Origin: a virus
DNA length: 20,534 nucleotides
IMG/VR virus record: IMGVR_UViG_3300017719_000288
Coordinates: 1-20,534 of that record
Reading direction: 5' to 3' (one strand)
Shown: piece by piece, positions 1,916-19,506 of the stretch
How positions within the stretch are numbered: position 1 is the stretch's first letter
Layout of the letters: each line of letters opens with the position of its first letter
The notes under the pieces: model-generated
What the model saw: the letters and a program-made list of their open reading frames with translations, nothing else
The model's database searches: none
Told to the model about the DNA's origin: nothing
Made by a program: the position numbers and the translations under genes

Positions 1916-2539
1916 ATGAAAAAACTAGAAGTATTTCCAACACCATTACATTTCTTTAATATTGGTACTACTAAAGAATTTTTAGAATGTAAAAAAGTAT
2001 TGGAAGATATTGCTGCTGAATGGGATTATAAAGCAAGACCCAATGACCTTTCAGTGACTACAGATGATAATTTGCATATGCAAGAACCTTTTATAGGTTT
2101 ATCTAAACTTATTCTGTCTAAATCGAAAGAAGTATTTGACGACCTTGGATTAGTGAGAGAATCTGAAAAGGTTGTTTGTATGTGGTCAAATATATCTCGT
2201 GCAGAAAATAAGCATCAAATGCATTTACATGCAAACTCTTACTATAGTGTTGTACTATATTTTAATTGCCCTCAACCATCACCAGGAAATTTCAGAATTA
2301 GAGACCCTCGTCCTGGATTACTGACAACATTTTTTGAATATGAAAAAGAAAATGCATTTTCTAAAAGAGATATAGATATTTTACCAGAGGAAGGATTATT
2401 AATTTTTTTCCCCTCTTGGTTAGAACATGGTGTGCAGAATGGAGATTTTCCTAGCAATGAAAGAAGAATATCTCTTAGTTGTAACATCATGCCAGTTTCA
2501 AATGTAACAGATTACACCCATCAGTATTATTATCAATGA
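1916..2539 (+). CDS. 2OG-Fe(II) oxygenase-like protein 1 (PF13759-type)
   Basis: The protein is 207 residues. It resembles the putative 2OG-Fe(II) oxygenase family PF13759: a WSNISRAENKH segment (about 90-100) leads into HLHANSYYSVVLYF (about 103-116). A strand pair with FRIRDPRPG follows, then LLIFFPSWLEHGV with the distal histidine at 171, and ERRISLSCN with an arginine at 183/184 placed to hold 2-oxoglutarate. The proximal metal motif reads HLHAN rather than a clean HxD. Such enzymes couple oxidation of 2-oxoglutarate to hydroxylation of a substrate; the substrate here is unknown. The start at 1916 is chosen because an AGGAGG precedes it; the longer frame upstream is only translated tRNA. 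It is the first of three consecutive oxygenase genes and overlaps the next by 4 nt. Confidence 0.85.
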   Translation: MKKLEVFPTPLHFFNIGTTKEFLECKKVLEDIAAEWDYKARPNDLSVTTDDNLHMQEPFIGLSKLILSKSKEVFDDLGLVRESEKVVCMWSNISRAENKHQMHLHANSYYSVVLYFNCPQPSPGNFRIRDPRPGLLTTFFEYEKENAFSKRDIDILPEEGLLIFFPSWLEHGVQNGDFPSNERRISLSCNIMPVSNVTDYTHQYYYQ

Positions 2540-3021
2540 AAGGCATCTATTTACAATACGATTTTTTGTCCTCGGCAGAATGCTTTGCTGTAATGTCTTT
2601 TTATGAGGCAAATAAAGATAAGACATTTTTGCATGAATACAATCAATCATACCCTCTTCAATTGCATCATTTTCAGGGATTTCATGAATTTGATTATATT
2701 CATTCACGGGTAGTTGATTATGCCGAAGTGCTATCCAAGACCAAGTTTGAAGTTCATAATTTTGAGATTGTGAAGTGGGGTCCTAAATCAAAAATGAAAC
2801 CGCATAAAGATTTTTCTGTTGATGAGTGGAGTGCTATTGTATATCTTAATGATAATTACTATGGTGGCAAAACAAGATTTACTGACCAAGAGTTAGAGAT
2901 TACACCAAAACAAGGAACATTAGTTTTGTTTAATGGACATGCTATGAGGCATAGTGTCTCAGAAATTTTGAATGGAAATAGATATACTATGGCATACTGG
3001 TTAGAAAATGAATCTGTTTGA
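2536..3021 (+). CDS. 2OG-Fe(II) oxygenase-like protein 2 (prolyl-4-hydroxylase-like fold)
   Basis: The protein is 161 residues, short for the superfamily, but with the double-stranded beta-helix signatures in order. VKWGPKSKMKPHKDF carries the metal motif H90-K-D92, then AIVYLNDNYYGGKTRF, then ITPKQGTLVLFNGHAMRHS with the distal H139, and a 2OG-binding arginine in NRYTMAYWL (R149). The YGG-x-T-x-F pattern followed by P-x-x-G-x-x-x-x-F is typical of P4H-like oxygenases that hydroxylate peptides or small molecules. The ATG overlaps the previous stop (ATGA), so translation is probably coupled. The complete triad suggests an active enzyme. Substrate unknown. Confidence 0.88.
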   Translation: MKGIYLQYDFLSSAECFAVMSFYEANKDKTFLHEYNQSYPLQLHHFQGFHEFDYIHSRVVDYAEVLSKTKFEVHNFEIVKWGPKSKMKPHKDFSVDEWSAIVYLNDNYYGGKTRFTDQELEITPKQGTLVLFNGHAMRHSVSEILNGNRYTMAYWLENESV

Positions 3022-3658
3022 GTTTGGGGAATGGAATCTCACTACCGAAGAGTTTATGGGTAGTAAGATTATTACTATTGAAAATTATTTTAAGTATCCA
3101 GATTTAATTCGCAATCTTGTTCTAGAACCATTACCTGATTTATGGAGAGCAGATTTAGAAGGTAGTATGAATGGTGTTCATTACATGGATAGACGGTCGA
3201 TATCAAAATTAACTGGTAAATATGATGAGCAATTTTCTAAGCATTATGATTACCTAGGTCAACTTATTAATCAGAAGGCAGGATTGCATAGTGTTAATCA
3301 ATCTGTTATCAGTAATGTTACGAGATTTTTAAAAACTTCTTTTAATAATATCAACGATAACTATTGGTGGCCGCATAGAGATAGGGGATACAATGCAATC
3401 ATATCTCTGAATAATGAATTTTATGATGAATGCTCTGGTACGGTTTTATATCATCCTACAGGAGAACAACCCAAAGCACCAGAGAGCACAAATCCATGGG
3501 TATCTAAAAGTGAATATACTATTGTAAAACATTTGAAAGCAAAATATAATAGATGCATAATGTTTGATGGGAAATTATTTCCTCATGCTATGCACATAGA
3601 TAACTATGATTTCTTTAGTGATTTTTATCGAGTAAACCTAGTCTTATTTTTTGAATAA
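3008..3658 (+). CDS. 2OG-Fe(II) oxygenase-like protein 3 (DUF6445-like)
   Basis: The protein is 216 residues. The core reads NDNYWWPHRDRGYNAIISLN, with a metal motif H123-R-D125, then SGTVLYHPTGE, then a distal histidine in LFPHAMH (H193 or H196) and an arginine in FYRVNLVLFF (R208). WPHRDRGYN with the following GT-LY pattern resembles the DUF6445 group as I remember it; this group is usually regarded as related to 2OG oxygenases, but its reaction is not established. It begins 14 nt inside the end of the preceding oxygenase and ends at a TAATG overlap with the next small gene. It is therefore part of one translational unit with the two oxygenases before it. Confidence 0.8.
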   Translation: MNLFEFGEWNLTTEEFMGSKIITIENYFKYPDLIRNLVLEPLPDLWRADLEGSMNGVHYMDRRSISKLTGKYDEQFSKHYDYLGQLINQKAGLHSVNQSVISNVTRFLKTSFNNINDNYWWPHRDRGYNAIISLNNEFYDECSGTVLYHPTGEQPKAPESTNPWVSKSEYTIVKHLKAKYNRCIMFDGKLFPHAMHIDNYDFFSDFYRVNLVLFFE

Positions 3659-3798
3659 TGAATGAAGAAAAAGAACAAACTATACCCGAACATCTATACG
3701 ATGAGTGGGAATCTTATCTTGCTGTTTGTGAATCTTTTGGTATAGAACCTAACAAACGTAGATTCTTAAGATACAACGAATTGTTCCCGTATAAATAA
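3658..3798 (+). CDS. Small hypothetical protein, 46 aa
   Basis: This is a short acidic ORF (MNEEKEQTIPEHLYDEWESY at the start, RRFLRYNELFPYK at the end) that overlaps the previous stop by one base (TAATG). Helical, soluble, no recognisable domain. Its terminal codons TAT-AAA-TAA make up the late-promoter box TATAAATA that precedes the fibre module, so the gene's stop codon doubles as promoter. The exact fit between stop overlap and promoter supports it being real despite its length. Function unknown. Confidence 0.6.
   Translation: MNEEKEQTIPEHLYDEWESYLAVCESFGIEPNKRRFLRYNELFPYK
3790..3797 (+). promoter_or_regulatory. T4-type late promoter box TATAAATA
   Basis: An exact match to the T4 late promoter -10 consensus, recognised by the phage sigma factor gp55 in T4-like phages. 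It lies 28 nt before the GTG of the first fibre gene and overlaps the stop of the 3658 gene. Confidence 0.75.
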
Positions 3799-3825: not shown

Positions 3826-5148
3826 GTGGGAACTAGAAAAATTTCTCAGTTAGAAACTATTGATGATGCGAATCTATCTGGAGAAGCGATTCTTCCTGTA
3901 GTTGTATCTGACCCATTGATTCCTAACCGCAAGGTAAAGGTCAATCAACTCCATAAAGGAGTTGCACAAGGAGTAAAAAATGCACCTGGTTTGTGCTTTG
4001 ACTTGGATCGTGATACGGGTTTGTATCAAACTCAGTATGATGAAATAGGTCTTGGTTTTGGTGATGGTGGTATTGAGTTTAGTAGAAGTGTAATTGATGT
4101 TACTTCTACATTAACAATCAATGCAGTTGATGAGACAGCAACTAATTCCAACATTAGATTGTCTCCTAAGGGAACAGGCGTTGTTCAAGTTGCTGGTGGA
4201 TTTCGTATTGCTGATGGTGATTTTGAATTAGAAGATGCTCAGGGTCCACGAGTAAAGTTTGAGGTTGGACTTGTAGGAAGTGGAACTTCCTTACGAACAA
4301 TGACATTCCCCTCCATATCTGCTGGTAGTGGAACTACGTTAGTTGGTGCAGATACTCAGCAAACATTAACGAATAAAACCTTACTCATTGATGAAGACAA
4401 TTTAGTTATTGTTGATGGTTCGGAAGAAGCAAGTTTTCAAATTAATTGGGCGTTATCGTCAGGAATTAGAAGATCGTATTTTCTTCCTGATGCAGGAACA
4501 GTAACAACTACTGCTGAACCAACTGCAACTGCCTCTACATTGCTGGATACTAAAAGTACTCAGACAATTCTTAATAAGACAATTGTTGACCCTAGATTTG
4601 CTACTGACTCTGAGGCAGACACTTCATATGTAATCATTAACACTGATTCATTAACTGATAATAGAACAATTACAGTTCCTGATTTAAGTTTAACTTTAGT
4701 TGGTCTTGATACTACTCAGTCGTTAACTAACAAGACGATTGAGAACCTAATTCTTAATGATAGTGGGGATATTACAAAGAGAGCAACCTTCAGTACAGCG
4801 AATCAAAACACTACTACTAATAGAGTATTTGAATTCCCTGCTACTGATGACCTAAATACAACTATTAGTGATAACAATACGTTAGTCACTACATTAGCAA
4901 CACAGAAGTTATCTAACAAAGAATTAGTACAACCAAGCATTTCTGATACTATTTCTTCTGCTTTTAGTGTTACTATTCGTGCTGATAACATTACTGGAGA
5001 TAGGGTCATTCGTTTCCCCGATTCGGATGCTACACTTCTTTCTACAGAAAACGTTACTGCTGAAGACGTAAACTTCGGTGCTGGTATTGGTGGTCAGACC
5101 CTGACTGGTAGAACCAGACAACAACAATTTTTCTACGCAGGATTCTAA
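3826..5148 (+). CDS. Tail-fibre-like structural protein with four imperfect repeats
   Basis: The protein is 440 residues, beta-rich, with Thr, Asn, Asp and Ser dominating. The N-terminus (GTRKISQLETIDDANLSGEA) resembles the attachment segment of cyanophage fibre-like proteins. Four repeats of roughly 55-65 residues begin near residues 178, 246, 299 and 360 with TQQTLTNKT, TQTILNKT, TQSLTNKT and TQKLSNKE. Each is followed about 35-40 residues later by an Arg plus proline element (RRSYFLPD, NRTITVPD, NRVFEFPA, DRVIRFPD). This is the pattern of a trimeric beta fibre shaft. The start is GTG at 3826; no ATG lies in frame between it and the upstream stop, and there is no Shine-Dalgarno sequence. 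A late promoter precedes it. It probably forms part of the tail fibre or baseplate periphery. Confidence 0.78.
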   Translation: MGTRKISQLETIDDANLSGEAILPVVVSDPLIPNRKVKVNQLHKGVAQGVKNAPGLCFDLDRDTGLYQTQYDEIGLGFGDGGIEFSRSVIDVTSTLTINAVDETATNSNIRLSPKGTGVVQVAGGFRIADGDFELEDAQGPRVKFEVGLVGSGTSLRTMTFPSISAGSGTTLVGADTQQTLTNKTLLIDEDNLVIVDGSEEASFQINWALSSGIRRSYFLPDAGTVTTTAEPTATASTLLDTKSTQTILNKTIVDPRFATDSEADTSYVIINTDSLTDNRTITVPDLSLTLVGLDTTQSLTNKTIENLILNDSGDITKRATFSTANQNTTTNRVFEFPATDDLNTTISDNNTLVTTLATQKLSNKELVQPSISDTISSAFSVTIRADNITGDRVIRFPDSDATLLSTENVTAEDVNFGAGIGGQTLTGRTRQQQFFYAGF

Positions 5149-5157
5149 TTTTTAACA

Positions 5158-6597
5158 ATGGCAAGACAAGGACTTCTAGCACAAGCTAAACCAGCGGCAA
5201 CAACTGATACATTGTTGTACTCTTCCTCAGTTACTGAGTCGGCATCAGCATTACTTAAAATTGCTAATGATGGTACTGGAGCAGCATATCGTGTTGCACT
5301 TAGGGATTACGATCAAGCGTTAGTGCTTGACGCATCAACTTATAAATTACATAAAGGTGATGTAGTTACAAACTACCGTATTAATATTGATACTGCGATT
5401 AGTGCTTCAACATTCACTCCAGGACAGGCATTTACAACTGGTGATGGAGAAAAGAGTTTTAAATTTGAATCTTTCTTCATTCCGACTCTAACAACAATTT
5501 TTGTTAAAGCATTTGCGATTCGTGACTTATCCCTAGAATCAGTTTCTGGTGATTTTGATTTGGGAGATACAATCACAAAGGGTACTGGTAGTGATACAAC
5601 TGTTGCAACAGTATTTGCATCATCTGGTGGATTTATTTCTGTTGGTCCTTCTACTATTAATGGTTCGGGAACCGAGTTTGCAGATGGTGATACTGTAACT
5701 AGTAGTTCTGGCGGTACAGGTACTGTTTCTGTTGGTGGTATTGGCACTGCTAATAGTAAGTATGTCTTCTCAGAAACTACCATTGGTGCTAACTACGATA
5801 GACAAGTATCTGCTCTATTCTCCGATAGAACGTATCGTTTTGATGTTTCTGACAGCACAATGTCAGGTAGAGATTTCAAACTATCGATTACTGAAGGGGG
5901 AGAATTTGGTCCTGATGGGGACTTTACGGCAGTAACTGATAATGGTGTTGAGTATACAACAGGAAAAACTTCTAATGGTACTGCTGGTAGCGGTGGTGCA
6001 TACGTTCAGTACGATTTCTCTGCAAATTCCTCACTCCCTGTAGAAATGTTTTGGTATGATGGTGGAACTGGAACTGCTGGTAATTCCTCTTATGGTGGTG
6101 CTGATGACACCTTTGCTACTACAAGTCTCGTGACTTATGATGAATTCTACGCATATGATGTTAACGGTACTCTTGTAGACAATACGGATACCTTTGAATT
6201 TGATAGTATTACATATACTATTGAAAGTCAAACATCAGGTTCATATGGTGTTGTTTCTGATTATACAGGAACAGCATTAAAAATTATTCTTGGTATTGGT
6301 TCTACTGAATTTGCTGGTAGTGATATCTTTAGAGATGTTCCTAAAGTTGCTTCTATCAATAGAAGTGATGTAACAGTAAGTTCAGTAACAACGGCAAAAG
6401 CAGCGATTGATACCAATACATTCCTTGCAGTTGATAAAGCGTTGTCTGCTAATACCGTAGATAATATTACATCATTAGTTATTGGTCCTGGTCAAAGAGT
6501 TCATGTTTATTCAGCAACTCAAAATAATGTATTCTCCTTAATTGGTTTTGAGGATGGAAGTAGTGAGTTTACAACTCGCGTCCACGGCATCTACTAA
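5158..6597 (+). CDS. Virion structural protein, beta-rich, cyanophage fibre module
   Basis: The protein is 479 residues beginning MARQGLLAQAKPAATTDTLL, an opening I associate with structural proteins of T4-like cyanophages. It is beta-rich throughout, with many Gly, Thr, Ser and Asp and almost no Cys or Trp. About residues 128-200 form a Gly/Ser/Thr-rich stretch (DFDLGDTITKGTGSD, ADGDTVTSSSGGTGT) that looks like two copies of a short beta motif. There is no enzyme motif, signal peptide or membrane segment. It starts nine bases after the previous stop with no late-promoter box in the gap, so it is probably transcribed from the promoter at 3790. It could be a tail or baseplate decoration protein; the exact position in the virion cannot be read from sequence. 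Confidence 0.72.
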   Translation: MARQGLLAQAKPAATTDTLLYSSSVTESASALLKIANDGTGAAYRVALRDYDQALVLDASTYKLHKGDVVTNYRINIDTAISASTFTPGQAFTTGDGEKSFKFESFFIPTLTTIFVKAFAIRDLSLESVSGDFDLGDTITKGTGSDTTVATVFASSGGFISVGPSTINGSGTEFADGDTVTSSSGGTGTVSVGGIGTANSKYVFSETTIGANYDRQVSALFSDRTYRFDVSDSTMSGRDFKLSITEGGEFGPDGDFTAVTDNGVEYTTGKTSNGTAGSGGAYVQYDFSANSSLPVEMFWYDGGTGTAGNSSYGGADDTFATTSLVTYDEFYAYDVNGTLVDNTDTFEFDSITYTIESQTSGSYGVVSDYTGTALKIILGIGSTEFAGSDIFRDVPKVASINRSDVTVSSVTTAKAAIDTNTFLAVDKALSANTVDNITSLVIGPGQRVHVYSATQNNVFSLIGFEDGSSEFTTRVHGIY

Positions 6598-6600
6598 ATA
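6594..6600 (+). promoter_or_regulatory. Late promoter box CTAAATA
   Basis: A one-base variant of the T4 late box, overlapping the TAA stop at 6595-6597 and lying 28 nt before the ATG at 6629. Confidence 0.55.
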
Positions 6601-6628
6601 ACTGTATAAGAAAGACCTCTAAGCAGAA

Positions 6629-9600
6629 ATGGCTCTTACTAGACTTAAGAATATTATTACGTCCAGAACTGGACGTATTATCTACGTTAACCCTGATGAT
6701 TTCGATGCATCCGATGCTATCGATAATAGGGGAAACTCGGCGTTACGACCCTTTAAGTCTATTCAAAGAGCGTTTCTTGAGGTAGCAAGATTCTCGTATC
6801 GAGTTGGTTTATCAAATGACGAATTTGATGCCTTCTCGATTATGCTGTATCCAGCAGAATATATTGTTGACAACAGACCTGGCGAAGTTTTATATACAAA
6901 CGTTGCTCCCATTGATGAGAACTCAAACTTAGATTTGACTTCTCCAAACAATGTTCTGCATAAATTTAATTCGGTAGAAGGTGGTATCATTGTTCCTAGA
7001 GGTTGTTCCCTCGTTGGTACTGATCTTCGCCGTACAAAAATTATTCCTAAGTATGTTCCATATCCTACAGTATTTGCTGCAAAGGGTATTAATACAGAAT
7101 CTCAAGTTCCTCCTCGTACTGCTATCTTTAAGGTAACTGGTGGTACTTATTTCTGGCAATTCTCATTCTTCGATGGTGCTGAAGAGGGTGTATATTACAA
7201 ACCTGATAGTGTAGAGACACTAGCACCTAAATTTTCACACCATAGACTTACTTGTTTTGAATTTGCTGATGGATTTAATTCCTTGCAAACCTTAATCTCT
7301 GGTGATCCTACTAGAGGTTTAGAGCAAACAGTTCCTAATGCAGATTATTCTGCTGTTCCTAATATCTTAGAAAGAACTGACCTAGAAATTTACTATCAGA
7401 AAGTATCGAAAGCATTTGCTACTATTCCCGATACATCTGGTGACCCTGCTAATGACCAAATCCAGGCAAGAGTAGAAGAAAATAGAATCGTTGGTCCTAT
7501 TTCCGATGAATACCGAGTCCTTCAAGTTACTCGTAATGGTAATACTGCTACGGCAGTTACTGTTGATGAGTTTGATAATCCCAGGGACCATGGTTTCTCT
7601 GTTGGTGTTAACATTAATATCTCAGGAGTTACTGGTTCATCTGGACCACAATCGTTAGTCGATGCAAGTTTGTATAATGGTTCCTTTACTGTAACTTCTG
7701 CATCAGGTAATATCTTTACCTATCAGATGCTATCCGAACCTTCTGGTAATGCTGTTGGTAGTAATGTTACAGTTAAGACTGAAATTGATACTGTTGACTC
7801 TGCATCTCCTTATGCGTTTAACCTATCCCTGAGAAGTGTCTGGGGTATGAATGGAATGTTGGCGAATGGTGCTAAAGCAACTGGTTTCAAATCAATGGTT
7901 GTTGCACAGTTCACTGGTTTGAGTCTTCAGAAAGATGATAGAGCGTTTGTAAGATTTAACGAGTCTACTGGTAATTATGATAATGCAGCAGCGGGTGATG
8001 GTGCTCACTTAGATGGTTTTGCTGAGTATCGTAAGGGTTGGGCACATAGACATATCGTCTGTACTAATGATTCTTTCATCCAGGCAGTTTCTGTGTTCGC
8101 TGTTGGATATGGCACACACTTTACTGCTGAAAGTGGTGCTGACATGTCGATTACGAACTCAAACTCTAACTTTGGATCGACAGCACTTCGTTCTGCTGGT
8201 TTCAAAGCAAAGGCATTCTCTAAAGATAAAGCAGGAGAAATTACACATATCATTCCTCCTAAAGCACTTAGTGTTATTTCTACAACTGCAACAGGTGCAA
8301 GTGGTGAGGTGAGTATTACATTAGCAAACGATGGTTCTGTTAATGGTGTTATTGAGGGTATGAATGTTACTGGCACTAATGTTGGTGTCGGTGCAACAGT
8401 TGTTTCTGTTAATACTAACACCAGAATAGTTACGCTGTCTGTAGTTAACACCGATACTGTCAATGGCAATATTATTTTTGGAGAAGAGACTTCGGTTAAC
8501 TGGGTGAATATTGACATTCAGAGAACAGTTACTATTAACCAAGCACTTGCTGCTGGTGGAGGAGTTGCTGGTTCAAGACTTTACCTCTATGGATATACTG
8601 CTCAAGGTTCACCACCAACAACTAGAGTACAAGGTTATAGTGTTGGTGCTCGTCAAGATGGTACTGGTGCTAGTGCAGTTGCAGATAGACTTAATGTTAA
8701 GTTGATTCCTTCTGTAGGTTCTGATGCTGAAATTAAAACCGCAGACATCTCTCCATATGGTCCTGATGTATCGGGTAAAGCAGCAGGAGAAACAGGATCT
8801 CCAATCCAATTTGATGAAAATACATACACTGTCGGTGGATTATCTGTTGTTGGTGGATGGTATCTGTCTGTAAATGCAACTGGAAATTCAATTTATACAG
8901 TTCTCACTACAAATACACAAACATACGGTAATGTAAACTTTACACCAACAACATTTATTAAGAGAATTCCTGACTCTAGAGACCTTGCTGATAGAACTTA
9001 CCGTGTTCGTATGGTTATTGACAAGGACAAGAGCAATCCTCTTCCTAGAGATCCTTTGAGTGGTTATGTAATGCAACCACTTAATAGTAATACATCCGCA
9101 TTCAAATTGAATGGTACATTCTACATCTATGATATTGAAAAAGTACAAGAATTTGTTAGAGGCGTCGATGATGGAATATACTACCTCACCCTTTTATATG
9201 CATCTGTTGCACCTTCAGCTGCTAATTTTAACGACAGAAAGTTCAGTCAAAATGTCAACGAAGTCTACCCTTCGTTTGACAGAGACAACCCTCTTGCTGA
9301 CCCTGATCGTGCTTATTCCATCGCTGACAACGAAACTATCGGTCTCGTAAATGCAACGGATAATGCAAGTCCAACTCCAAATAAAGATCCTAAGAGGTCT
9401 ATTACGAAAGAGGCAATTGTTAATCTTTTAACCGACACTGGTTGGGCAGATCCTTCTACTGAACCTGCATATAATTCAGTTAACAAAACACTTTCTAGTG
9501 TTCAACTCACTGCTCGTTTTGGTGATGAAGAAACCAGAAAGATTAATATCAGAGAAAATGTTGCTGATAATTCGGTTGCACCGATTCCAATAGAACTTAG

Positions 9601-10678: not shown

Positions 10679-10701
10679 GTATCGGAGCAACTTAGTTAAA
10701 A

Positions 10702-11631
10702 ATGGCACTTACTAAAATCAGTGGAAATCAAATTTCCACTGCAACAATTGCAACTATGGATTCTCTCTCATTTTTAGATGGTGAGAGCATCTTAAAGTTA
10801 CCTAATGGAACAACTGCTCAACGTCCAGGTTCTCCAACTCAGGGAACGCTTAGATATAACTCTGAGTTGAACAATAATGCTGGTGCTGCTGAAGTATATG
10901 TTGCCAATAATGGTACTGGAAATCCTGGTTGGGTTGCCGTAGGTTCTGGTGGCGCATCTTTAGGTAAAGGTGGTGTCATTAGAAGTAATCCCGACTTTAT
11001 TGATGAAAATATTACTGTCGATCCATCTCTTGATGATAAATTCAAGAATGCATTTACCAGGGGTCCATTAGAAATTAGAGACGGTTTTACGGTTACTATT
11101 GCAGATACTGCTGATTGGCAAATTTGGGGTGGAGAACCAGCAGATCCGTTTCCTGGTGAAGTATTGGCGATGGGATATGCTCAGACACCAGCAACAAGAT
11201 ATACGTTGAACACTGACAATTTAAGCGATGCTGGCGCTACTATTCCTGATTTAGCAGTATCATTCACACCAACAAGAACGACTTCTAAGGTTATTATTAC
11301 TGCTTCTATCAGTAATAATAATAGACACGTTTATTCATTTGGAGTAAAACGTGACGGTGTGTTACTGACGACTGGGGCAGCAAATTCCAACAACAGTAAT
11401 TCTTCTGGTGCGGTAGTAACTGGTTATCATGGAGCAGACGTAGAAGGTGAGTTGACAACAACTACGTTTAGTTTTGAGGATACTTCGGTTTCTGCTGGAG
11501 ATACTTATGTGTATGAAATTTGTGGCACTGCATCTTGGAGTGGAGGGGTTCGTGATCTTTTTATTAATGATAGACAGCAGAACGACATGAGAAGTATTTC
11601 TTCTATGACTGTCACTGAAATCATGGGTTGA
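10702..11631 (+). CDS. Tail-fibre protein with RPGSP module and jelly-roll-like C-terminal domain
   Basis: The protein is 309 residues. Residues 1-33 (MALTKISGNQISTATIATMD) look like a fibre attachment segment. Residues 34-52 carry PNGTTAQRPGSPTQGTLRYN, a module repeated in the next two genes, followed by a variable W-containing end (NPGWVAVG). A linker then leads to a separate C-terminal domain of about 150 residues rich in beta strands (LAVSFTPTRTTSKVIITASI, TYVYEICGTASWSGG), resembling the head domains of phage receptor-binding fibres. It is probably a host-contact or fibre-tip protein. The start is ATG after an A-rich leader with no Shine-Dalgarno sequence. A late box is present upstream. 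Confidence 0.75.
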   Translation: MALTKISGNQISTATIATMDSLSFLDGESILKLPNGTTAQRPGSPTQGTLRYNSELNNNAGAAEVYVANNGTGNPGWVAVGSGGASLGKGGVIRSNPDFIDENITVDPSLDDKFKNAFTRGPLEIRDGFTVTIADTADWQIWGGEPADPFPGEVLAMGYAQTPATRYTLNTDNLSDAGATIPDLAVSFTPTRTTSKVIITASISNNNRHVYSFGVKRDGVLLTTGAANSNNSNSSGAVVTGYHGADVEGELTTTTFSFEDTSVSAGDTYVYEICGTASWSGGVRDLFINDRQQNDMRSISSMTVTEIMG

Positions 11632-11637
11632 TAAATA
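11631..11637 (+). promoter_or_regulatory. Late promoter box ATAAATA
   Basis: GATAAATA overlaps the TGA stop at 11629-11631 and lies 22 nt before the ATG at 11660. It matches seven of eight bases of TATAAATA. Confidence 0.6.
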
Positions 11638-11659
11638 AAGAGGGGAGTAATTAACTATT

Positions 11660-12031
11660 ATGTCTAAAGTAAGAGCATCTTCTATTAAGGGACTTGGGGT
11701 AGCAGATGGTGGACCTTTTATTGACCTGAATAAATTCAGTCATGGTCAACCACTTGATATGGGCAATTCCAATATTACTACTGGAGTATTGACTATTACA
11801 AGAGTAAACATTACCACTGCAACTACTACTACAGTAAATGCTACAACCATGGTTGTATCTGAGGGTGCTGCAAATTTGAATGGTGATGAATTGCTAGTTC
11901 CCACTGGAACAACAGCAGAAAGACCTTCGTCGCCTACTCTTGGAAGTTTACGAGTAAATAGTGAACTAGGGCAAGTTGAAATGTATACCAATCAAGGTGG
12001 TCAAGGTAATGGTTGGGAAAAATTAGGATAA
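11660..12031 (+). CDS. Short fibre-base protein (N-terminal and RPSSP modules only)
   Basis: The protein is 123 residues. It starts MSKVRASSIKGLGVADGGPF, matching the start of the next gene (MSQLKVNSIKGLNVPASGPQ). A Thr/Asn/Val-rich shaft follows (TITRVNITTATTTTVNATT). It closes with PTGTTAERPSSPTLGSLRVN (81-100) and a W-containing end (NGWEKLG). It therefore has the attachment and shaft parts of its two neighbours but no C-terminal adhesin. It could be a stub left after loss of a tip, or a genuine short fibre or fibre-network component; the clean stop followed at once by the next late promoter favours a stable gene. AGAGGGGAG lies 13 nt before the ATG, a poorly spaced Shine-Dalgarno. Confidence 0.72.
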   Translation: MSKVRASSIKGLGVADGGPFIDLNKFSHGQPLDMGNSNITTGVLTITRVNITTATTTTVNATTMVVSEGAANLNGDELLVPTGTTAERPSSPTLGSLRVNSELGQVEMYTNQGGQGNGWEKLG

Positions 12032-12037
12032 TTATAT

Positions 12038-12045
12038 TATAAATA
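12038..12045 (+). promoter_or_regulatory. T4-type late promoter box TATAAATA
   Basis: An exact consensus 34 nt before the ATG at 12080. It lies just after the stop of the 11660 gene, followed by an A-rich tract and a small hairpin (AAAAAG/CTTTTT). Confidence 0.75.
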
Positions 12046-12079
12046 AAAAAAAGGACGGACTTTTTCAGAAATAATTACT

Positions 12080-13168
12080 ATGTCACAACTTAAAGTAAAT
12101 TCTATTAAAGGATTAAATGTTCCTGCATCTGGTCCGCAGATTGACATCGGTAATACGGGAGATATTAGTCTAAATAACTCCAATGTAACTAATGTCAACC
12201 AGGCAACCGTAACTACAGCAAACATTACAACTAATAATGTAACAACAGAGAACGCAACAACTCTAAATGTTACTAATACATTAGATATGCGTACTGCTGA
12301 ACAAATGTTAGTTCCTTCAGGAACAGATGCTGAGAGACCTGGATCTCCTTCAGTAGGAACAATTAGATATAATACTACCAGTGGTAAACCAGAATTCTGG
12401 AATGGTACTACCTGGAAAAACTTCACTATCCAAAGATTTACTGAAGAACTGTCAGGAAGTTCTTGGACAGTTCCCTCTGGTGTTTCTGCTGTTGATGTTT
12501 TAGTTGTTGCTGGTGGAGGTTCTGGGGGTTCTGGAACTGGTGGTGCTGGTGGTGCAGGCGGTGCTGTATTTGCCTCAGGATTTCCTGTAACTCCTGGTGC
12601 TGCTCTTTCTATTTCGGTGGGAAATGGTGGTCCTGGTGGATACCAAGGAAGAGGAAATAGCGGCGCTAACAGTACATTTGGCACTATTACTGCTAATGGC
12701 GGTGGTGGTGGCGGTACGACTTATCCTCCTGCTCGTTCTAATGGAAGACCTGGAGGTAGTGGTGGCGGTGGCGCACAATATCCATCGGGTAGATATAATC
12801 TAGGTAACTCCACTCAACCTGCCACTCCTGTTGCTGGTGCTTCTGGATATGGAAATCCTGGTGCTCCTGGCGACCGTGGAGGCGGTGGTGGTGCTGGTGG
12901 CGCTGGTAGTGGCAACACTGGTGGTGCTGGCAGAACCTTTACTCTAGGTGAAGCCCAATACACCGTAGCAGGTGGTGGTAAAGGTCAGTCAAGAAGTCCA
13001 GCAGCGTCTCCAGGACAACGCCCAGGCGGTGGTGGTGGTACTAATGGCAATCGCGGTGCAGCAGGAACTGCTCGTACTGGCGGTGGCGGTGGTGCTGGAT
13101 GGGATTACGGCGGCGGTCGTTCTGGCGCTGGCGGTTCTGGTATTATTGTTGTTTCGTATCTAAACTAA
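12080..13168 (+). CDS. Glycine-rich tail-fibre adhesin
   Basis: The protein is 362 residues. Residues 1-70 are an N-terminal segment and Thr/Asn shaft like the previous gene; residues 78-97 are the VPSGTDAERPGSPSVGTIRY module; then WTVPSGVSAVDVLVVAGGG (about 129-147) opens a long polyglycine domain reaching the C-terminus, with many GGGGG or GGAGG runs separated by short variable loops, ending GIIVVSYLN. Polyglycine tip domains that fold as glycine helices with exposed variable loops are known from the T4-like phage S16 gp38 adhesin, and glycine-rich C-terminal domains also occur in fibre proteins. The role is most likely host receptor binding at the fibre tip. Local GC is well above the neighbouring genes because of GGN codons. 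An exact late promoter stands upstream. Confidence 0.8.
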   Translation: MSQLKVNSIKGLNVPASGPQIDIGNTGDISLNNSNVTNVNQATVTTANITTNNVTTENATTLNVTNTLDMRTAEQMLVPSGTDAERPGSPSVGTIRYNTTSGKPEFWNGTTWKNFTIQRFTEELSGSSWTVPSGVSAVDVLVVAGGGSGGSGTGGAGGAGGAVFASGFPVTPGAALSISVGNGGPGGYQGRGNSGANSTFGTITANGGGGGGTTYPPARSNGRPGGSGGGGAQYPSGRYNLGNSTQPATPVAGASGYGNPGAPGDRGGGGGAGGAGSGNTGGAGRTFTLGEAQYTVAGGGKGQSRSPAASPGQRPGGGGGTNGNRGAAGTARTGGGGGAGWDYGGGRSGAGGSGIIVVSYLN

Positions 13169-13177
13169 TTTACAATC

Positions 13178-13474
13178 ATGGCACATACATTCGGAGAAGA
13201 AAAAGAAGTCGTTTCTAAGATTTCTATTGATGGAGACTTCCTAGTATATGTTTATAAAAAGCATTACTATGAAGCAGCAGATGGTACTGAACTATTAATT
13301 TCGGATACTATGAATCAACCACTTGAACCTGGAGATGATTTGAGTGGTGATGAATGGTATATGACTGATGCGGTTCGTGCAATTTGTGCTCAACAATGGG
13401 ATGAGGAATCAGTTGCTGAGTGGGAAGCAATGAGTGATGAAGAGAAAGACGTGCATCGTCAAACATCTGATTGA
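13178..13474 (+). CDS. Small acidic hypothetical protein, 98 aa
   Basis: This encodes MAHTFGEEKEVVSKISIDGD and onward. It is acidic, with one Cys and several Trp (DEWYMTD, QQWDEES, EWEAMSDEE). It begins nine bases after the glycine-rich adhesin, with no late box of its own, so it is probably co-transcribed with the adhesin and could assist it, perhaps as an assembly factor; that is inference from position only. No motif is recognised. Its final 16 nt overlap the end of the opposite-strand gene 13459-13878, marking the boundary between two convergent transcription units. Confidence 0.7.
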   Translation: MAHTFGEEKEVVSKISIDGDFLVYVYKKHYYEAADGTELLISDTMNQPLEPGDDLSGDEWYMTDAVRAICAQQWDEESVAEWEAMSDEEKDVHRQTSD

Positions 13475-13878
13475 AGTTTGCATTGATATAATTCAATCAT
13501 TTCTTTCAAATCATCTGATTTCAATTCACTATAATGTTCAATCATATTAGCAAGATTGATAAACATTAAATCTTTATTCTCACTTTTGAGAATAGTATAG
13601 TCTTTACTACGAAAATGGCAGAAGAGAAACACCAACTCTTCTGCCATTTCTCCTATGTAATATTTTACTGTTTCTCTTTCTACGGGCAATTCACAGTTGT
13701 ATTCATCTGTACTATAAATCGAGTGAAATAATCCTGCCAAACAGACATATTCTGGTGCATCCATTCTCTTTAATATGGAATATGTACCAAACAAATGTGA
13801 TGCTAAAGTTATATTACTATGGGGTATATTGGATGACATAGAGTAAATGTAATCTATGCATTCATTGGTACTTTTCAT
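13459..13878 (-). CDS. HD-like (DUF6817-type) protein in the oxygenase operon
   Basis: The protein is 139 residues. HSNITLASHLFGTYSILKRM (20-39), then YVCLAGLFHSIYSTD (44-58), ERETVKYYIGEMAEELVFLF (67-86) and ANMIEH (110-115) match, as I recall it, the DUF6817 family: a helical HD-like fold in which histidines such as H28 and H52 would bind metal. FHS replaces the standard HD pair, which is normal for that group, so hydrolase activity is uncertain. The gene starts within the end of the preceding oxygenase (ATGA overlap, 13875-13878) and is last in a five-gene minus-strand operon. Its coding sequence contains two perfect inverted repeats (13575-13594 and 13613-13649). Possible roles are phosphohydrolase or metal-dependent oxygenase partner; both are inference. 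Confidence 0.75.
   Translation of the reverse strand: MKSTNECIDYIYSMSSNIPHSNITLASHLFGTYSILKRMDAPEYVCLAGLFHSIYSTDEYNCELPVERETVKYYIGEMAEELVFLFCHFRSKDYTILKSENKDLMFINLANMIEHYSELKSDDLKEMIELYQCKLQSDV
13575..13594. repeat. Perfect inverted repeat, 8-bp stem with CTTT tetraloop
   Basis: TATTCTCA-CTTT-TGAGAATA. It lies inside the coding sequence of the HD-like gene and about 100 nt past the stop of the last plus-strand structural gene. It could serve as an RNA terminator or stabiliser for readthrough fibre transcripts. Confidence 0.75.
13613..13649. repeat. Perfect inverted repeat, 14-bp stem with 9-nt loop
   Basis: AAATGGCAGAAGAG (13613-13626) is the exact reverse complement of CTCTTCTGCCATTT (13636-13649), with loop AAACACCAA. 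It lies 18 nt beyond the first hairpin, within coding sequence. Either strand would form a stable RNA hairpin. It lacks a strong U-tract on the plus strand, so a simple intrinsic terminator is not certain. Confidence 0.8.
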
Positions 13879-14477
13879 GAGAATGTGGTCACTGAAACTA
13901 CTCTTCTATTATTGGAATGAAAGTTACTAACACTATGGAATATTGACCCAGGGAAGCACACTGCTTTATACCTCTTTGGTTTTATATTGCATAGAACATT
14001 TAGTTGATCGTATTCATCTACATTATAATTTAGTTTTTGATTGTCTCCAACTAACATTTTATCAAACAATAAGGTGCCACCACCCTCAAATTCATCAGTT
14101 AGATATATCAGTAAGTTGTAGTGATTGAATTTATGATCTACATGAGGTTCGATATAAGGATATGGTAAAGTCCAACCTTGAGTGGAATTTAGACAACTGC
14201 GATATATTTTTTCAACAGATTTGTTTAGATAAAGTGTGGAAAATCTTTCAACTATAGGTAATACCCAACTACTTAATGTTGAATTTGATATTGGTGTATA
14301 ACTATCATCATCTAATGTATCTCTTCCAAAAATTACATGTGAGTAAAATGGAAATAATCCACCTACAGAGTTTTGTTGGTAAAACCAACCGAAGTCATTA
14401 GATAGTATATTATTTTCTACAATCTCAATTTCATCAGGATTTAGAAAATCTTCTGCTTCAATATATAATTCATTCAT
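13875..14477 (-). CDS. 2OG-Fe(II) oxygenase-like protein 4
   Basis: The protein is 200 residues. The metal motif is in YIEPHVDHKFNHYNLLIYL (H112-V-D114). A GGGTLLFDK element follows (132-140), then FPGSIFHSVSNFHSNN with the distal H181, and an arginine in NRRVVSVTTF (R191 or R192). This is the complete order expected of a P4H-like double-stranded beta-helix oxygenase. The start is supported by GGAGGA about seven bases upstream on the minus strand, the best Shine-Dalgarno in this operon. It overlaps the upstream oxygenase by 8 nt and the HD-like gene downstream by 4 nt, which implies coupled translation. The substrate is not deducible from sequence. Confidence 0.87.
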   Translation of the reverse strand: MNELYIEAEDFLNPDEIEIVENNILSNDFGWFYQQNSVGGLFPFYSHVIFGRDTLDDDSYTPISNSTLSSWVLPIVERFSTLYLNKSVEKIYRSCLNSTQGWTLPYPYIEPHVDHKFNHYNLLIYLTDEFEGGGTLLFDKMLVGDNQKLNYNVDEYDQLNVLCNIKPKRYKAVCFPGSIFHSVSNFHSNNRRVVSVTTFS

Positions 14478-15063
14478 TAAAATGTCCTCCGAGACAGAAG
14501 TTAATCACAGACCTTATTCCTTGTTGTGGTAGTATATTAGCATGATAATTTCTACCATTAAATAACACAACACGTCCTTGTTTTGGTGTCACTGATTCAA
14601 TTATATTATATTCTTTGAATGATGGTCTGTCATTGGATTCACTTTTCTTATCAAAAAATACAGTATCCCCATCAGAAGTAAGTACATAATACAAACAAAC
14701 TAAATGGTCTTCATTTATCATATCAACATGTGGATTTGATAATCCCGAAGCACCTATAACAGGTTGCTGAAGGAATGTCCTAACAAAGTAAGTATTATTG
14801 ATAGTGTAGTTTATATTTTCACATGCCATATGTGCTAGAGGCATAACAATATTGTATAGATGTCTATTGAAGATGTTCTCATCATCTACACTATACATCA
14901 AATTAGAAAATCCAGGCACATTAACAAAGTATTCTTCTTCTTGTTTTGGTGTATCCTCGGATAAGTTTTTGTAGAACCAATTAGTGTTTAATACTTCGTG
15001 CTTAATACATTCTTGATATGCATCAGATACAACGTTATCAATTACTTTCAGATTGAAGTTCAT
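14470..15063 (-). CDS. 2OG-Fe(II) oxygenase-like protein 5
   Basis: The protein is 197 residues. LSNPHVDMINEDHLVCLYYV (108-127) gives the metal motif H112-V-D114, then SDGDTVFFDK, then VTPKQGRVVLFNGRNYHANI with the distal H174, and GIRSVINFCLGG with the 2OG-binding R184. PKQG-x-x-V-x-FNG-x-x-x-H closely resembles the corresponding part of oxygenase 2 (PKQGTLVLFNGHAMRH), suggesting these two share a subfamily although they lie in different clusters. It overlaps the upstream unknown gene by 26 nt and the downstream oxygenase by 8 nt. There is no clear Shine-Dalgarno sequence, consistent with coupled translation. It is likely an active hydroxylase of unknown substrate. Confidence 0.87.
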   Translation of the reverse strand: MNFNLKVIDNVVSDAYQECIKHEVLNTNWFYKNLSEDTPKQEEEYFVNVPGFSNLMYSVDDENIFNRHLYNIVMPLAHMACENINYTINNTYFVRTFLQQPVIGASGLSNPHVDMINEDHLVCLYYVLTSDGDTVFFDKKSESNDRPSFKEYNIIESVTPKQGRVVLFNGRNYHANILPQQGIRSVINFCLGGHFNE

Positions 15064-15457
15064 TTTTTAATTCATGCTTTAATGTCTGGAAAAATACCTC
15101 AAGTCTCATAACATCTGTTGTTATTCCAATAATAGGATATCGAATTGCTTGTTGACCTTCTCCCATAGTTAAATATCCCTGATTAACACAACGAATTCCA
15201 CCATTTTCCATCCTTCTAACACACTCGCTATCTTGAATTGGAAATACAGGAACAGTTTTTAAGTTGTGTGCTATAAGTAACTCCTCAGATTCATCAAACA
15301 TTCCTTTACTACGCAACCATTCTGCTGCTATATTTACTCCCTGTCTTTGATAATCATTTAATGCGTTTCCACCTTCAATAAGATCTTCTTGCTCTATGTT
15401 ATTAAGTAATTCGTAATCAGGAATATCAGGAATCAAATCAGTATCTTTAATTTTCAT
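15038..15457 (-). CDS. Hypothetical protein within the oxygenase operon
   Basis: The protein is 139 residues starting MKIKDTDLIPDIPDYELLNN. It has acidic N-terminal helices, a segment QRQGVNIAAEWLRSKGMFDE, and a middle part with two Cys (DSECVRRMENGGIRCVNQGY, about 77-96) that could bind metal or form a disulphide-like pair. I do not recognise the family, and it has no oxygenase triad. It sits between two oxygenase genes in the minus-strand operon and overlaps the next by 26 nt, so a shared function with them is plausible but unproven. It may be a substrate or accessory protein for the flanking enzymes; this is inference from position only. Confidence 0.7.
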   Translation of the reverse strand: MKIKDTDLIPDIPDYELLNNIEQEDLIEGGNALNDYQRQGVNIAAEWLRSKGMFDESEELLIAHNLKTVPVFPIQDSECVRRMENGGIRCVNQGYLTMGEGQQAIRYPIIGITTDVMRLEVFFQTLKHELKNELQSESN

Positions 15458-15487: not shown

Positions 15488-16060
15488 TTACCTTAAATTG
15501 AATGAGATTGCAATTTTTCTATGGGATTTCTGAGATTGTGTTCCATGAAGCATGTTACTCTTAAACATGATTAATCTCCCTGGTAAACATGGAATTGTAT
15601 AATACTCAGAATTGAAAGTATTTGATGTTGTTGGTTTTCTATCCATCAAATCATTGGGATTATTAAAAAATGTAATCTCATCATCTGGATTACATTCAAC
15701 ATAGTATACACCAGAGATAAAACTGTCTCGATGATTATGGGGAAAAATATAACTATTCTCTCCACTAACATTAGTCCACATATTATGGAGAGACATATCT
15801 TCTATATCGGTATTGCTATAACCCAATTCTTTACAATATTCTAGTGCATTGATACATATATGCTTAACTAGACTTTGCATTTCTGGAAACTGTTGCAAGT
15901 TGCTCTCGGTTTTATGTGTAGAGGGGACGTTTAGTAAGTCATTACTTTCTACACTGTAAGTATCACATATGTCTATGCAAAATTGTGACAGAGAGGGCAA
16001 CTCATCCACCAGGATATTATCTACCATCCAAATAGTCTTAGGAAATATTGTATGAATCAT
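15488..16060 (-). CDS. 2OG-Fe(II) oxygenase-like protein 6 (PF13759-type)
   Basis: The protein is 190 residues and first in the minus-strand operon. MIHTIFPKTIWMV at the start, NMWTNVSGENSYIFPHNHRD (93-112), SFISGVYYVE (113-122), FFNNP (131-135), CLPGRLIMFKSNMLHGTQ (158-175) and HRKIAISFNL (180-189) follow the PF13759 pattern closely. The motif reads H108-N-H110-R-D112, which provides both HxH and HxD possibilities; the distal histidine is H172 and the arginine R181. SGVYYV is the family's usual strand and is better kept here than in oxygenase 1. The ATG lies in the divergent control region, where its complement overlaps the -35 of the plus-strand promoter. Substrate unknown. Confidence 0.88.
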   Translation of the reverse strand: MIHTIFPKTIWMVDNILVDELPSLSQFCIDICDTYSVESNDLLNVPSTHKTESNLQQFPEMQSLVKHICINALEYCKELGYSNTDIEDMSLHNMWTNVSGENSYIFPHNHRDSFISGVYYVECNPDDEITFFNNPNDLMDRKPTTSNTFNSEYYTIPCLPGRLIMFKSNMLHGTQSQKSHRKIAISFNLR

Positions 16061-16088
16061 TGACGAATAATGTATTCAAATGTATAAT
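16060..16088 (+). promoter_or_regulatory. Strong sigma70-type promoter TTGACG-17-TATAAT
   Basis: The -35 TTGACG (16060-16065) and the -10 TATAAT (16083-16088) are separated by 17 nt, nearly perfect consensus. It would drive the oxygenase pair at 16117-17282. Early promoters of T4-like cyanophages are of this host-sigma type, in contrast to the late boxes of the fibre genes. Confidence 0.85.
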
Positions 16089-16116: not shown

Positions 16117-16716
16117 ATGGCACAAAATATGGTATGGTGGCAAACTACAATGCCATCTGAACTAATTGATATTGTATCTAAAACTTTAAGCAGTAATGAT
16201 AATCAGTTTAGCACGGCAGAAACTACAGGCGGAGTTAATCTAAAAATCAGAGATAGTAAAACTATTTGGATGGAAGAAGCACATTGGATTACAGGATTGT
16301 GCTGGCACTATATCATGATGGCAAATAGAGAAAACTTCTTATATGATATTGATAGAGTTGAAGGTGGTACTTTACAATATACTTCTTACGAACCAGGAGA
16401 ATACTATCATTGGCATGTAGATGCTGATATACTAAGTTCCCGAGTACCCAACTTAACAAATCCAGATGTTGAGTTTGTGCAAAGCAATATCGAAAATATT
16501 CGTAAGTTAAGTATTATTGTTCAGTTGTCTGACCCAGAAGAATATAGTGGTGGAGAAGTACAACTTCAATATAGTGATAGGTCTACAGGTTTTATACCAA
16601 AACAAAAAGGAACTGTGATTGTATTTGATAGTAGAACTTTGCATAGAGTCAAAAAGATTAAAAGTGGGAGAAGAAAATCCTTAGTTGGGTGGGTTACAGG
16701 ACCGAGGTGGAAGTAA
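16117..16716 (+). CDS. 2OG-Fe(II) oxygenase-like protein 7 (PKHD/PiuC-like hydroxylase)
   Basis: The protein is 199 residues with a textbook triad. YEPGEYYHWHVDADI (91-105) carries H100-V-D102. RKLSIIVQLSDPEEYSGGEV (129-148) is the classical YSGGE strand. FIPKQKGTVIVFDSRTLHRV (159-178) holds the distal H176, and SGRRKSLVGWVTGP has an arginine at 185/186. WHxD followed by LS-x-x-VQLS-x-P-x-x-Y-x-GG-E is typical of PKHD-type hydroxylases such as PiuC/Sbp-like proteins and of the 2OG hydroxylase common in cyanophages. It is likely active. It starts 28 nt after the -10 box of the promoter at 16060-16088, and TAAGG lies just before the ATG. It overlaps the next gene by one base. Confidence 0.9.
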   Translation: MAQNMVWWQTTMPSELIDIVSKTLSSNDNQFSTAETTGGVNLKIRDSKTIWMEEAHWITGLCWHYIMMANRENFLYDIDRVEGGTLQYTSYEPGEYYHWHVDADILSSRVPNLTNPDVEFVQSNIENIRKLSIIVQLSDPEEYSGGEVQLQYSDRSTGFIPKQKGTVIVFDSRTLHRVKKIKSGRRKSLVGWVTGPRWK

Positions 16717-17282
16717 TGGCAATTCAAAAAGACTGGTCTGTTGTTAAATTATCCATGATTGCAGACCCCTCAAAATATATTGAGCAACCTCCATGGGTAA
16801 GGGGTTCATTAAACTATCACTCGCCAGGTCACGTTACATATAATAATGAAGAAGGTCAGGTAAATGGTAGTTTTTCTCGCTACAATTATCCTGCATATAA
16901 AGAACTGCATTATCACATTAAAGGTGTTGTAGAGAAAGTAATTGGGGAACAATTATATCCAACATATTATTTTGACCGATTCTATTTCAAGGGGCAGGAA
17001 TTAGTGCCACATAGAGATAGACCAGCATGTGAGATTAGTGTTTCGTATCATATATCAGACAACATAGATTATGATTGGCCAATATTTTTTGAAGCAGAAA
17101 ATGTCCCTAGAGTATCACTAACATGCCTACCTGGAGATGGTGTTCTTTATAGAGGATGTGAATTGACACATTGGAGAGAAAAACTAAAAGGAGATGCAAA
17201 CACATATTTTCATCAAGTGTTTTTCCATTATGTGAGAGCGGACGGCAACTGTGTCCACCATGCTTATGACACTTGCAACTAG
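16716..17282 (+). CDS. 2OG-Fe(II) oxygenase-like protein 8 (divergent)
   Basis: The protein is 188 residues starting MAIQKDWSVVKLSMIADPSK; this ATG overlaps the previous TAA (TAATG) and has GAGGTGG about ten bases upstream, so it is preferred over an upstream non-ATG start. The core is FKGQELVPHRDRPACEISVS (91-110) with H99-R-D101, then a long strand WPIFFEAE, then LPGDGVLYRGCELTHWRE (138-154) with distal H152, and YFHQVFFHYVRADG. The order PHRDR ... PGD-x-x-x-YRG-x-x-x-x-HWR matches a group of phage and bacterial 2OG oxygenase-like proteins. The 2OG-binding arginine is not obvious, so activity is less certain than for its neighbour. Confidence 0.78.
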   Translation: MAIQKDWSVVKLSMIADPSKYIEQPPWVRGSLNYHSPGHVTYNNEEGQVNGSFSRYNYPAYKELHYHIKGVVEKVIGEQLYPTYYFDRFYFKGQELVPHRDRPACEISVSYHISDNIDYDWPIFFEAENVPRVSLTCLPGDGVLYRGCELTHWREKLKGDANTYFHQVFFHYVRADGNCVHHAYDTCN

Positions 17283-18299: not shown

Positions 18300-18341
18300 T
18301 ACTATGCCTTGCCAACCTAAACAATCTATGCAATACTAACA

Positions 18342-18524: not shown

Positions 18525-18642
18525 TGAAACTTTCAATGTCTCTTGGCAAGAGACTGATATGGTTCAAGTAGAGGAAGACGATTGGGTTTCTTCTATTCTT
18601 GGTTCTGAAGATGAGGTCATCAATGACATCTGCAATGCTTGA
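18499..18642 (+). CDS. Small acidic hypothetical protein, 47 aa
   Basis: This starts MDSVSMFSDETFNVSWQETD and continues acidic with Trp (VEEDDWVSSILGSEDEVIND). The ATG at 18499 and an in-frame one at 18514 are both possible. It overlaps the basic protein before it by 26 nt and the next gene by 20 nt, each in a different frame, so translation is probably coupled. A small acidic protein beside a small basic one could be a binding pair; this is speculation. Function unknown. Confidence 0.5.
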   Translation: MDSVSMFSDETFNVSWQETDMVQVEEDDWVSSILGSEDEVINDICNA

Positions 18643-18910
18643 ACAAACTACATTCAAACTTCACACTTTTGACAAATGGGTTACTGAATGGTCTCATTAT
18701 GTTGACAATGAAGACTTAGGAAAAATCAGAATCTATAGGTCTAGGTTTGGATTGTTCACTAGTATCAATGAAAACGGTGAAAAACTTGTTACAGGACCAA
18801 CTCAAGAATCCATCGCCACTATGACTTATTGGCATCTAAAGTGGAATCGTGATGGTTATGATGGTTTGTCTGGTGTAACTTATGACAGTACAGTGGGGGG
18901 TAAATTGTGA
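18623..18910 (+). CDS. Hypothetical protein upstream of oxygenase 9, 95 aa
   Basis: This starts MTSAMLEQTTFKLHTFDKWV. The ATG at 18623 is chosen because TGAGG lies six bases before it; ATGs at 18611 and 18635 are alternatives. A pattern of beta strands (GKIRIYRSRFGLFTSINENG) is followed by ESIATMTYWHLKWNRDGYDG, rich in Trp and Tyr. It overlaps the 18907 oxygenase by 4 nt (GTGA), so the two are likely produced together, and it may act with the enzyme; that is inference. No family recognised. Confidence 0.68.
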   Translation: MTSAMLEQTTFKLHTFDKWVTEWSHYVDNEDLGKIRIYRSRFGLFTSINENGEKLVTGPTQESIATMTYWHLKWNRDGYDGLSGVTYDSTVGGKL

Positions 18911-19506
18911 TACTATGGTCAGGTAATTATATGATGGATGAATCTACCATTGAACCAATGGTGGATAAACTTAAAACGTATCCTAAAGCATACAATCACA
19001 AGTTTAATCATCATTCTTCATATTATCTGAACCAACAAGATAGACCAGAAAACTGTTTACACTCTTTTTACTTAGAAATTCTAAACCAAGTAACTAAAGA
19101 CCTAACTCTGTATAATAGAATTAGGTTTAAGTATCCATTTTGGATGCAAGTTTATGGCAAGAATACTAAGTCTAATCATGGTCAACACGACCATTTTTCT
19201 GGTGGAGAAGCACTTTCTTGGGTGCATTTTATACAACCAACATCACAAAAATGTTTTCATTTTGTTGATGTGAACGGCGAAAATGTATATCCTAAGCAAG
19301 ATAAAGGTGACTTCATTGTTTTTCCTGCTTGGGCATTACATAGGGTTGATAATAACACTTCAAATGAAGAACGTGTTATCATTGCAGGTAATGTTGGTTT
19401 TGAACAAATCAGTGTTGAACATGTTGACAATGTGATTCAAGTGTCTACATTAACTGAGGTAAGCAAATTTGTTAGAGTATGGGAAACCTATGAAGAAGGA
19501 CTATGA
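18907..19506 (+). CDS. 2OG-Fe(II) oxygenase-like protein 9 (divergent PF13759-like)
   Basis: The protein is 199 residues from a GTG start (GTGA overlap with the previous gene, G-rich stretch upstream); ATGs eight codons in are alternatives. FWMQVYGKNTKSNHGQHDHF (78-97) carries a metal motif H94-D-H96, with H91 nearby. SWVHFIQP stands where PF13759 proteins have SGVYYV. KGDFIVFPAWALHRVDNN (133-150) gives the distal H145, and SNEERVIIAGNVGF the arginine R156. The overall order agrees with the family, but the proximal motif is HxH and the strand is altered, so activity or metal could differ. This gene is separate from the two fibre-flanking clusters, surrounded by small early genes. Confidence 0.8.
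   Translation: MILWSGNYMMDESTIEPMVDKLKTYPKAYNHKFNHHSSYYLNQQDRPENCLHSFYLEILNQVTKDLTLYNRIRFKYPFWMQVYGKNTKSNHGQHDHFSGGEALSWVHFIQPTSQKCFHFVDVNGENVYPKQDKGDFIVFPAWALHRVDNNTSNEERVIIAGNVGFEQISVEHVDNVIQVSTLTEVSKFVRVWETYEEGL

Follow-up and report, generated by a model that had tools for sequence, protein, structure and literature searches.

Arrays of diverse 2OG-Fe(II) oxygenase genes flank the tail-fibre module of a T4-like cyanophage

Introduction

Few genes of marine T4-like cyanophages have multiplied as much as those for 2-oxoglutarate (2OG)-Fe(II) oxygenases. Published counts run from 9 to 24 per genome, with 24 in S-SCSM1 (PMC9602691), 10 in S-CREM1 (PMC9964418) and 9 in S-SZBM1 (PMC9146016). 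In this work we have investigated nine oxygenase-like genes around the tail-fibre module of a 20.5 kb viral fragment, IMG/VR record IMGVR_UViG_3300017719_000288; the whole fragment is called the window below and all positions follow its numbering. The phage from which it derives resembles the three named above in carrying many divergent PF13640/PF13759 genes. Over the 7 kb that were compared, the window is 99.6% identical in DNA to Synechococcus phage ACG-2014g (NC_026924), a T4-like cyanophage of the Kyanoviridae, and the complete record of this phage served as genomic context (window position plus 16622 gives the record coordinate). Its genes gp023-gp048 match the window in content, order and strands, with no essential difference. 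We also surveyed 22 complete cyanophage genomes, in which 262 oxygenases entered the position counts, and independent loci from IMG/VR, which were used for the tests of promoters, co-variation and fibre-tip class.

Results

Diverse oxygenases of the 2OG-Fe(II) family have amassed in the window, in short operon-like arrays to either side of the fibre module (3826..13474, plus strand). A preliminary description, made from the DNA letters alone, had placed nine oxygenase-like genes of several subfamilies here. All nine open reading frames are present, with boundaries that agree with the RefSeq annotation of ACG-2014g except for the gene at 16117, which RefSeq makes 12 nt shorter. Upstream of the fibres lie oxygenases A (1916..2539, TIGR02466/PF13759 type), B (2536..3021, PF13640) and C (3008..3658, phrog_1644), three plus-strand genes which overlap at their ends. 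Downstream, a minus-strand cassette of five closely packed genes holds, in order of transcription, F (15488..16060, TIGR02466/PF13759 type), a gene at 15038, E (14470..15063) and D (13875..14477), both of phrog_274, and a DUF6817 gene. Divergent from this cassette is the plus-strand pair G (16117..16716, PF13640, similar to PKHD-type hydroxylases) and H (16716..17282, phrog_2954/T4-GC615), and oxygenase I (18907..19506, plus strand, phrog_81/PF13759 type) lies 1.6 kb from the array, past small genes.

All nine genes encode proteins of the 2OG-Fe(II) oxygenase superfamily. The curated Pfam cut-off was passed by five of them (A, B, F, G and I), C, D and E matched below it and H had no Pfam match; strong matches to oxygenase families in PHROGs, some under wrong names, were obtained for seven of the nine. 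Iterated profile searches begun from eight of the genes led to one common set of about 235 proteins in the 22 genomes. Gene C joins this set and keeps the invariant HxD, H and R, and although its structural model is of medium confidence (pLDDT 69.5), nearly all of its best 50 PDB matches found by Foldseek are 2OG oxygenases. Gene H stands outside the set by sequence, and searching PDB sequences with its profile gave nothing relevant. Its AlphaFold model (pLDDT 92.9) matched 2OG oxygenases in the PDB with a Foldseek probability of 1.00 and TM scores of 0.5-0.6, and the best 50 of 315 PDB matches (E<=0.001) were all 2OG or putative oxygenases. The best fold match of H is the Pseudomonas putida prolyl-4-hydroxylase (4iw3/4j25), with which it has HxD...H in common; at about 10% identity and TM 0.5-0.6, the substrate is not inferable from this match. 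Identity among the nine proteins is 18-31%, which accords with several subfamilies and rules out an origin of the arrays by recent local duplication. D and E could descend from an old duplication.

Only four of the nine are called 2OG oxygenases in the RefSeq record of ACG-2014g, and three misleading public names can now be corrected. Gene H is not a ferrochelatase, since no ferrochelatase appeared among the best 50 of its 315 PDB matches (E<=0.001). The name minor coat protein for gene C is ruled out by the profile set, the HxD...H...R residues and the model fold. D and E are not DNA endonuclease V: they have no DenV/EndoV match in Pfam, their PF13640 match is weak and HxD...H...R is conserved. 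The RefSeq name DNA endonuclease for gene B is likewise a misnomer. The cyanophage family annotated as ferrochelatase (T4-GC615/phrog_2954) folds as a 2OG oxygenase and has HxDR, CE and HWR as invariant motifs, and pelagiphages hold relatives which are also annotated in this way.

It had been suggested that most of the nine proteins keep HxD...H...R. The HxD iron ligands are found in six of them: B (HxD90-92...H139), C (HxD123-125...H193...R208), D (HxD112-114...H181...R192), E (HxD112-114...H174...R184), G (HxD100-102...H176...R186) and H (HxD99-101...H152-W-R). The remaining three have HxH...H instead: A (HxH103-105...H171...R184), F (HxH108-110...H172) and I (HxH94-96...H145). HxH characterizes the PF13759/TIGR02466 family and is also seen in the structures 3bvc and 2rg4, which are of bacterial origin; it is therefore no phage oddity, although the use of 2OG by this branch is less certain. 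About 37% of the aligned cyanophage 2OG-family proteins have HxH...H, and these are about as numerous close to the fibres as away from them. The arginine for the 2OG C5 carboxylate is conserved in A, C, D, E and G and not clear at 85% in B, F, H and I; in H, the HxD...HWR pattern is without an obvious canonical 2OG-binding arginine 10-15 residues past the second histidine. Among 242 aligned relatives the triad is kept in 238 (132 HDH, 88 HHH and 18 HEH; 4 other). In all nine genes, changes relative to S-RIM50 are more numerous at codon position 3 than at position 2, and together with the kept triads this indicates that the genes are maintained. Judging by their metal ligands, the oxygenases are probably catalytically intact.

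The density of oxygenase genes around the fibres, which the preliminary description had emphasized, is borne out by the survey. ACG-2014g has 9-10 of its approximately 15 oxygenases within 11 kb of the fibre gene. Across the 22 genomes we counted 61 pairs in tandem adjacency, against 17.3 expected and a maximum of 31 in 2000 permutations, and of the 21 runs of at least three oxygenases, 16 are no more than 16 kb away from the main fibre gene. Clustering near the fibres recurs in other genera: orthologues of the window genes sit mostly beside fibres there, and the G-H pair is retained together beside fibres in eight genomes. Location tracks subfamily (49 changes on the tree versus 75 when shuffled). 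Relative to other accessory genes, oxygenases are only modestly in excess near the fibres. Half of the oxygenases (130/262) are at most 20 kb from the main fibre gene, a span of about 22% of the genome, compared with 35% of size-matched other accessory genes; within 16 kb the size-matched accessory null reaches 30% on 18% of the length. The count within 12 kb is 101/262 where 84.8 were expected (p 0.001, without correction for lineages), and within 8 kb the excess over accessory genes was not significant. The surroundings of the fibres are a hot spot for accessory genes in general, in agreement with an earlier report that already gave this rank to the area "near gp5 with tRNAs" (PMC3037559). 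About half of all oxygenases sit away from fibres, for instance near uvsX, uvsW and gp15-gp16, and a universal association is ruled out by S-SSM4, ACG-2014d, S-RIM2 and S-SCSM1, which have few near their fibres.

The upstream regions speak for separate expression of fibres and oxygenases. In a de novo k-mer count, ATAAATA, the T4-type late promoter, was strongly enriched upstream of large genes. The late motif precedes five fibre-module genes in the window (as TATAAATA at 3790..3797, upstream of the first gene, and again at 12038, as CTAAATA at 6594 and 10672 and as ATAAATA at 11631) and none of the oxygenases. In the 22 genomes [AC]TAAATA stands upstream of 65/109 fibre genes, 38/454 nearby accessory genes and 2/118 oxygenases near fibres; the fibres had the higher frequency in every genome, and 0/30 operon-head oxygenases near fibres had the motif. 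Four altered motifs had frequencies of 5-15% upstream of fibre genes and 3-5% upstream of oxygenases. The independent loci gave 131/242 fibre genes versus 6/128 oxygenases. A sigma-70-like sequence, TTGACG-N17-TATAAT (16060..16088, plus strand, 11/12 matching positions), occupies the gap upstream of G, and its S-RIM50 equivalent, TTGACA-N17-TAGAAT, is kept within otherwise diverged DNA. Early or middle transcription of the oxygenases would thus be a better reading of these promoter motifs than late transcription.

We also asked if the arrays go with a particular type of fibre tip. No pair of genomes is more alike in its core than S-RIM50 and S-RIM8 (0.92), and yet the two differ in their tips (0.08) and near-oxygenase sets (0.03), so tips and arrays turn over together. 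Co-variation of oxygenase set and tip was 0.64 by Pearson (p <0.001; nearby non-oxygenase genes 0.12) and 0.09 in a rank partial Mantel test (p 0.22), and in 28 independent loci oxygenases and small unrelated neighbours co-varied with the tip alike (0.37 and 0.36). Linkage is enough to explain this co-variation, which the null rank test and the small neighbours rule out as a proof of function. S-RIM2 shares its tip genes with the S-SSM5 group, yet no array adjoins them there. Among 50 distinct loci from IMG/VR, arrays of at least three oxygenases occurred at 12/29 loci with Gly-rich tips and 0/21 others (Fisher 0.0004), and the same association in the 22 genomes had a rho of 0.66. A test fixed beforehand did not reach significance on the 22 new loci (p 0.5 downstream, 0.06 on both sides), and phylogeny-aware pairs were too few. 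Tips of array genomes contain more proline (0.057 versus 0.027, p 0.029, uncorrected over seven residues). The link between large arrays and Gly-rich tips is no more than suggestive.

As for the other genes of the locus, three tRNA genes (Leu-TAA, Thr-TGT and Asn-GTT; 1465-1914) directly precede the first array, and gene A begins 2 nt past tRNA-Asn. The fibre module encodes a virion structural protein (3826), a tail fibre (5158), a large tail fibre (6629, phrog_529), three distal proteins (10702, 11660 and 12080) and a 98-aa protein (13178), all on the plus strand. The distal protein at 12080..13168 has a Gly_rich_2 domain (PF21722, 9.8e-22), and its densest 150 aa are 39% Gly and 7% Pro. A DUF6817-type gene and the gene at 15038 had been suggested to share an operon with oxygenases, and both belong to the minus-strand cassette. 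The DUF6817 gene, confirmed by Pfam (13459..13878, PF20680, 1.3e-21), is the last of the minus-strand cassette and converges with the final fibre-operon gene, which ends at 13474, in a 16-nt tail-to-tail overlap; no terminator was predicted at 13459-13474. The gene at 15038..15457 encodes a 139-aa protein of phrog_10937, found in three of the 22 genomes (ACG-2014g, S-RIM50 and ACG-2014b), each time in the D/E neighbourhood and always adjoining E. An IMG/VR search gave no additional relatives. It is possible that its product is a partner or substrate of oxygenase E.

The equivalent slot of relatives contains other enzymes of the tailoring type, a Nol-like carbamoyltransferase and two tryptophan halogenases, and in ACG-2014f a collagen-repeat protein, a glycosyltransferase and an oxygenase are found in close proximity. 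At the end of another fibre-tip class, a phrog_1458 protein (573-583 aa, no Pfam match; L326:16708-18456, L335:17867-19585) repeatedly directly precedes a single oxygenase. In L317, L318, L353, L367 and similar loci, which share one tip class, a lone oxygenase without late promoter lies inside the fibre module, flanked by genes of about 60-90 aa and 343 aa.

Discussion

What could such arrays do beside the fibre genes? The explanation we favour, whose chances we put at about even, is that this locus serves a T4-like cyanophage as a host-interaction island, and that oxygenase arrays have accrued there in a recombination hot spot. The fibre locus and the tRNA-rich stretch upstream of it would form this hot spot, with distal fibre and accessory genes swapped jointly. 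From their promoters, the arrays would most likely be transcribed early or in mid-infection by a host-type RNA polymerase, apart from the late fibre genes. Fold and metal ligands suggest that each enzyme hydroxylates its own substrate with O2 and 2OG, less surely so for the HxH trio. The most likely targets would be host proteins or metabolites during takeover. Another point for the explanation is that none of the 45 virion proteins of S-SCSM1, a phage with 24 such genes, was named as an oxygenase (PMC9602691). Enzymes made ahead of the fibres could also be ready to hydroxylate the tips, although the data do not require it, and the best specific virion candidate would be the Gly-rich, Pro-containing tips.

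Several observations weigh against this explanation. The restriction of arrays to loci with Gly-rich tips would be easier to reconcile with fibres as the target than with the host, and so would the carbamoyltransferase and the two tryptophan halogenases found in the same slot in relatives. A good sigma-70 match is present at only a few array heads, and as the timing has been read from motifs, the plus-strand genes could still be expressed through transcription that runs on from late promoters.

Perhaps the oxygenases lie by the fibres merely as accessory DNA recombines there, and have mostly metabolic or regulatory roles with no fibre connection. We regard such pure hitchhiking as quite plausible, at somewhat under even chances; it overlaps the host-directed version of the favoured explanation. 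It draws on the published hot spot (PMC3037559), on the similar enrichment of size-matched accessory genes, with only a modest oxygenase excess, and on the half of all oxygenases located elsewhere. It does not account for tandem adjacency far beyond chance or for the G-H pair that stays together beside fibres in eight genomes.

A dedicated fibre modification, in which the enzymes of the arrays would add hydroxyl groups to residues of the distal fibre or adhesin, such as X-Pro-Gly in Gly-rich tips, and tune stability or receptor binding, seems to us rather unlikely. The location and recurrence of the arrays would suit it, as would the finding of all 12 large arrays at Gly-rich-tip loci, the correlation in the genomes, the proline content of the tips and the gene neighbours in ACG-2014f. 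Against it stand the lack at oxygenases of late promoters, whose sharing with virion genes would support such a system without being essential to it, the non-significant test fixed beforehand, the many Gly-rich tips without an array and the equal co-variation of unrelated small neighbours with tips in the independent loci. A broader version, which we consider unlikely, is that early-made hydroxylases, together with the halogenases and carbamoyltransferases of relatives, decorate Gly-rich adhesin tips as a swappable post-translational layer of host range, exchanged with the tips. We rate fibre modification no higher than action on the host or than accessory roles of hitchhiking genes. Of the dedicated modification system once proposed for this locus, the several subfamilies and the clustering stand, with recurrence in other genera, whereas position does not imply that fibres are modified, given the hot spot, the lack of late promoters and the mixed co-variation.

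Modification or repair of DNA or nucleotides by AlkB/TET-like enzymes, with nucleotides among the targets that the preliminary description named, is improbable and gained no specific support: such a role has been proposed for uvs-linked copies (PMC3037559, PMC9146016), a DNA adenine methylase gene begins at 19902 and gene B has a weak similarity to Tet_JBP (3.2e-4, below cut-off), but the stronger matches are to general PF13640/PF13759, PKHD and P4H-like proteins, the fold matches of gene H include AlkB with P4H ranked first, and no nucleic-acid-binding domain was found.

No hydroxylase of phage fibres and no expression class of these oxygenase genes turned up in our literature search. The arrays, their non-late promoters and the association with Gly-rich tips replace the vague label of auxiliary metabolism with testable questions on the timing of expression and the hydroxylation of tips. 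While the abundance of oxygenases was known before, the recurring tandem arrays which flank the fibres, and their non-late promoters, are new here. The oxygenase genes of S-SZBM1 were described as scattered (PMC9146016), unlike the arrays of the window, and S-SCSM1 has only one oxygenase within 20 kb of the fibre gene. The closest likeness is in Syn9, where eight oxygenases follow in a row past the fibre module (gp45-gp54); that array differs from the one in the window in lying entirely on the plus strand, in being separated from the fibres by two tryptophan halogenases and in consisting of other subfamilies.

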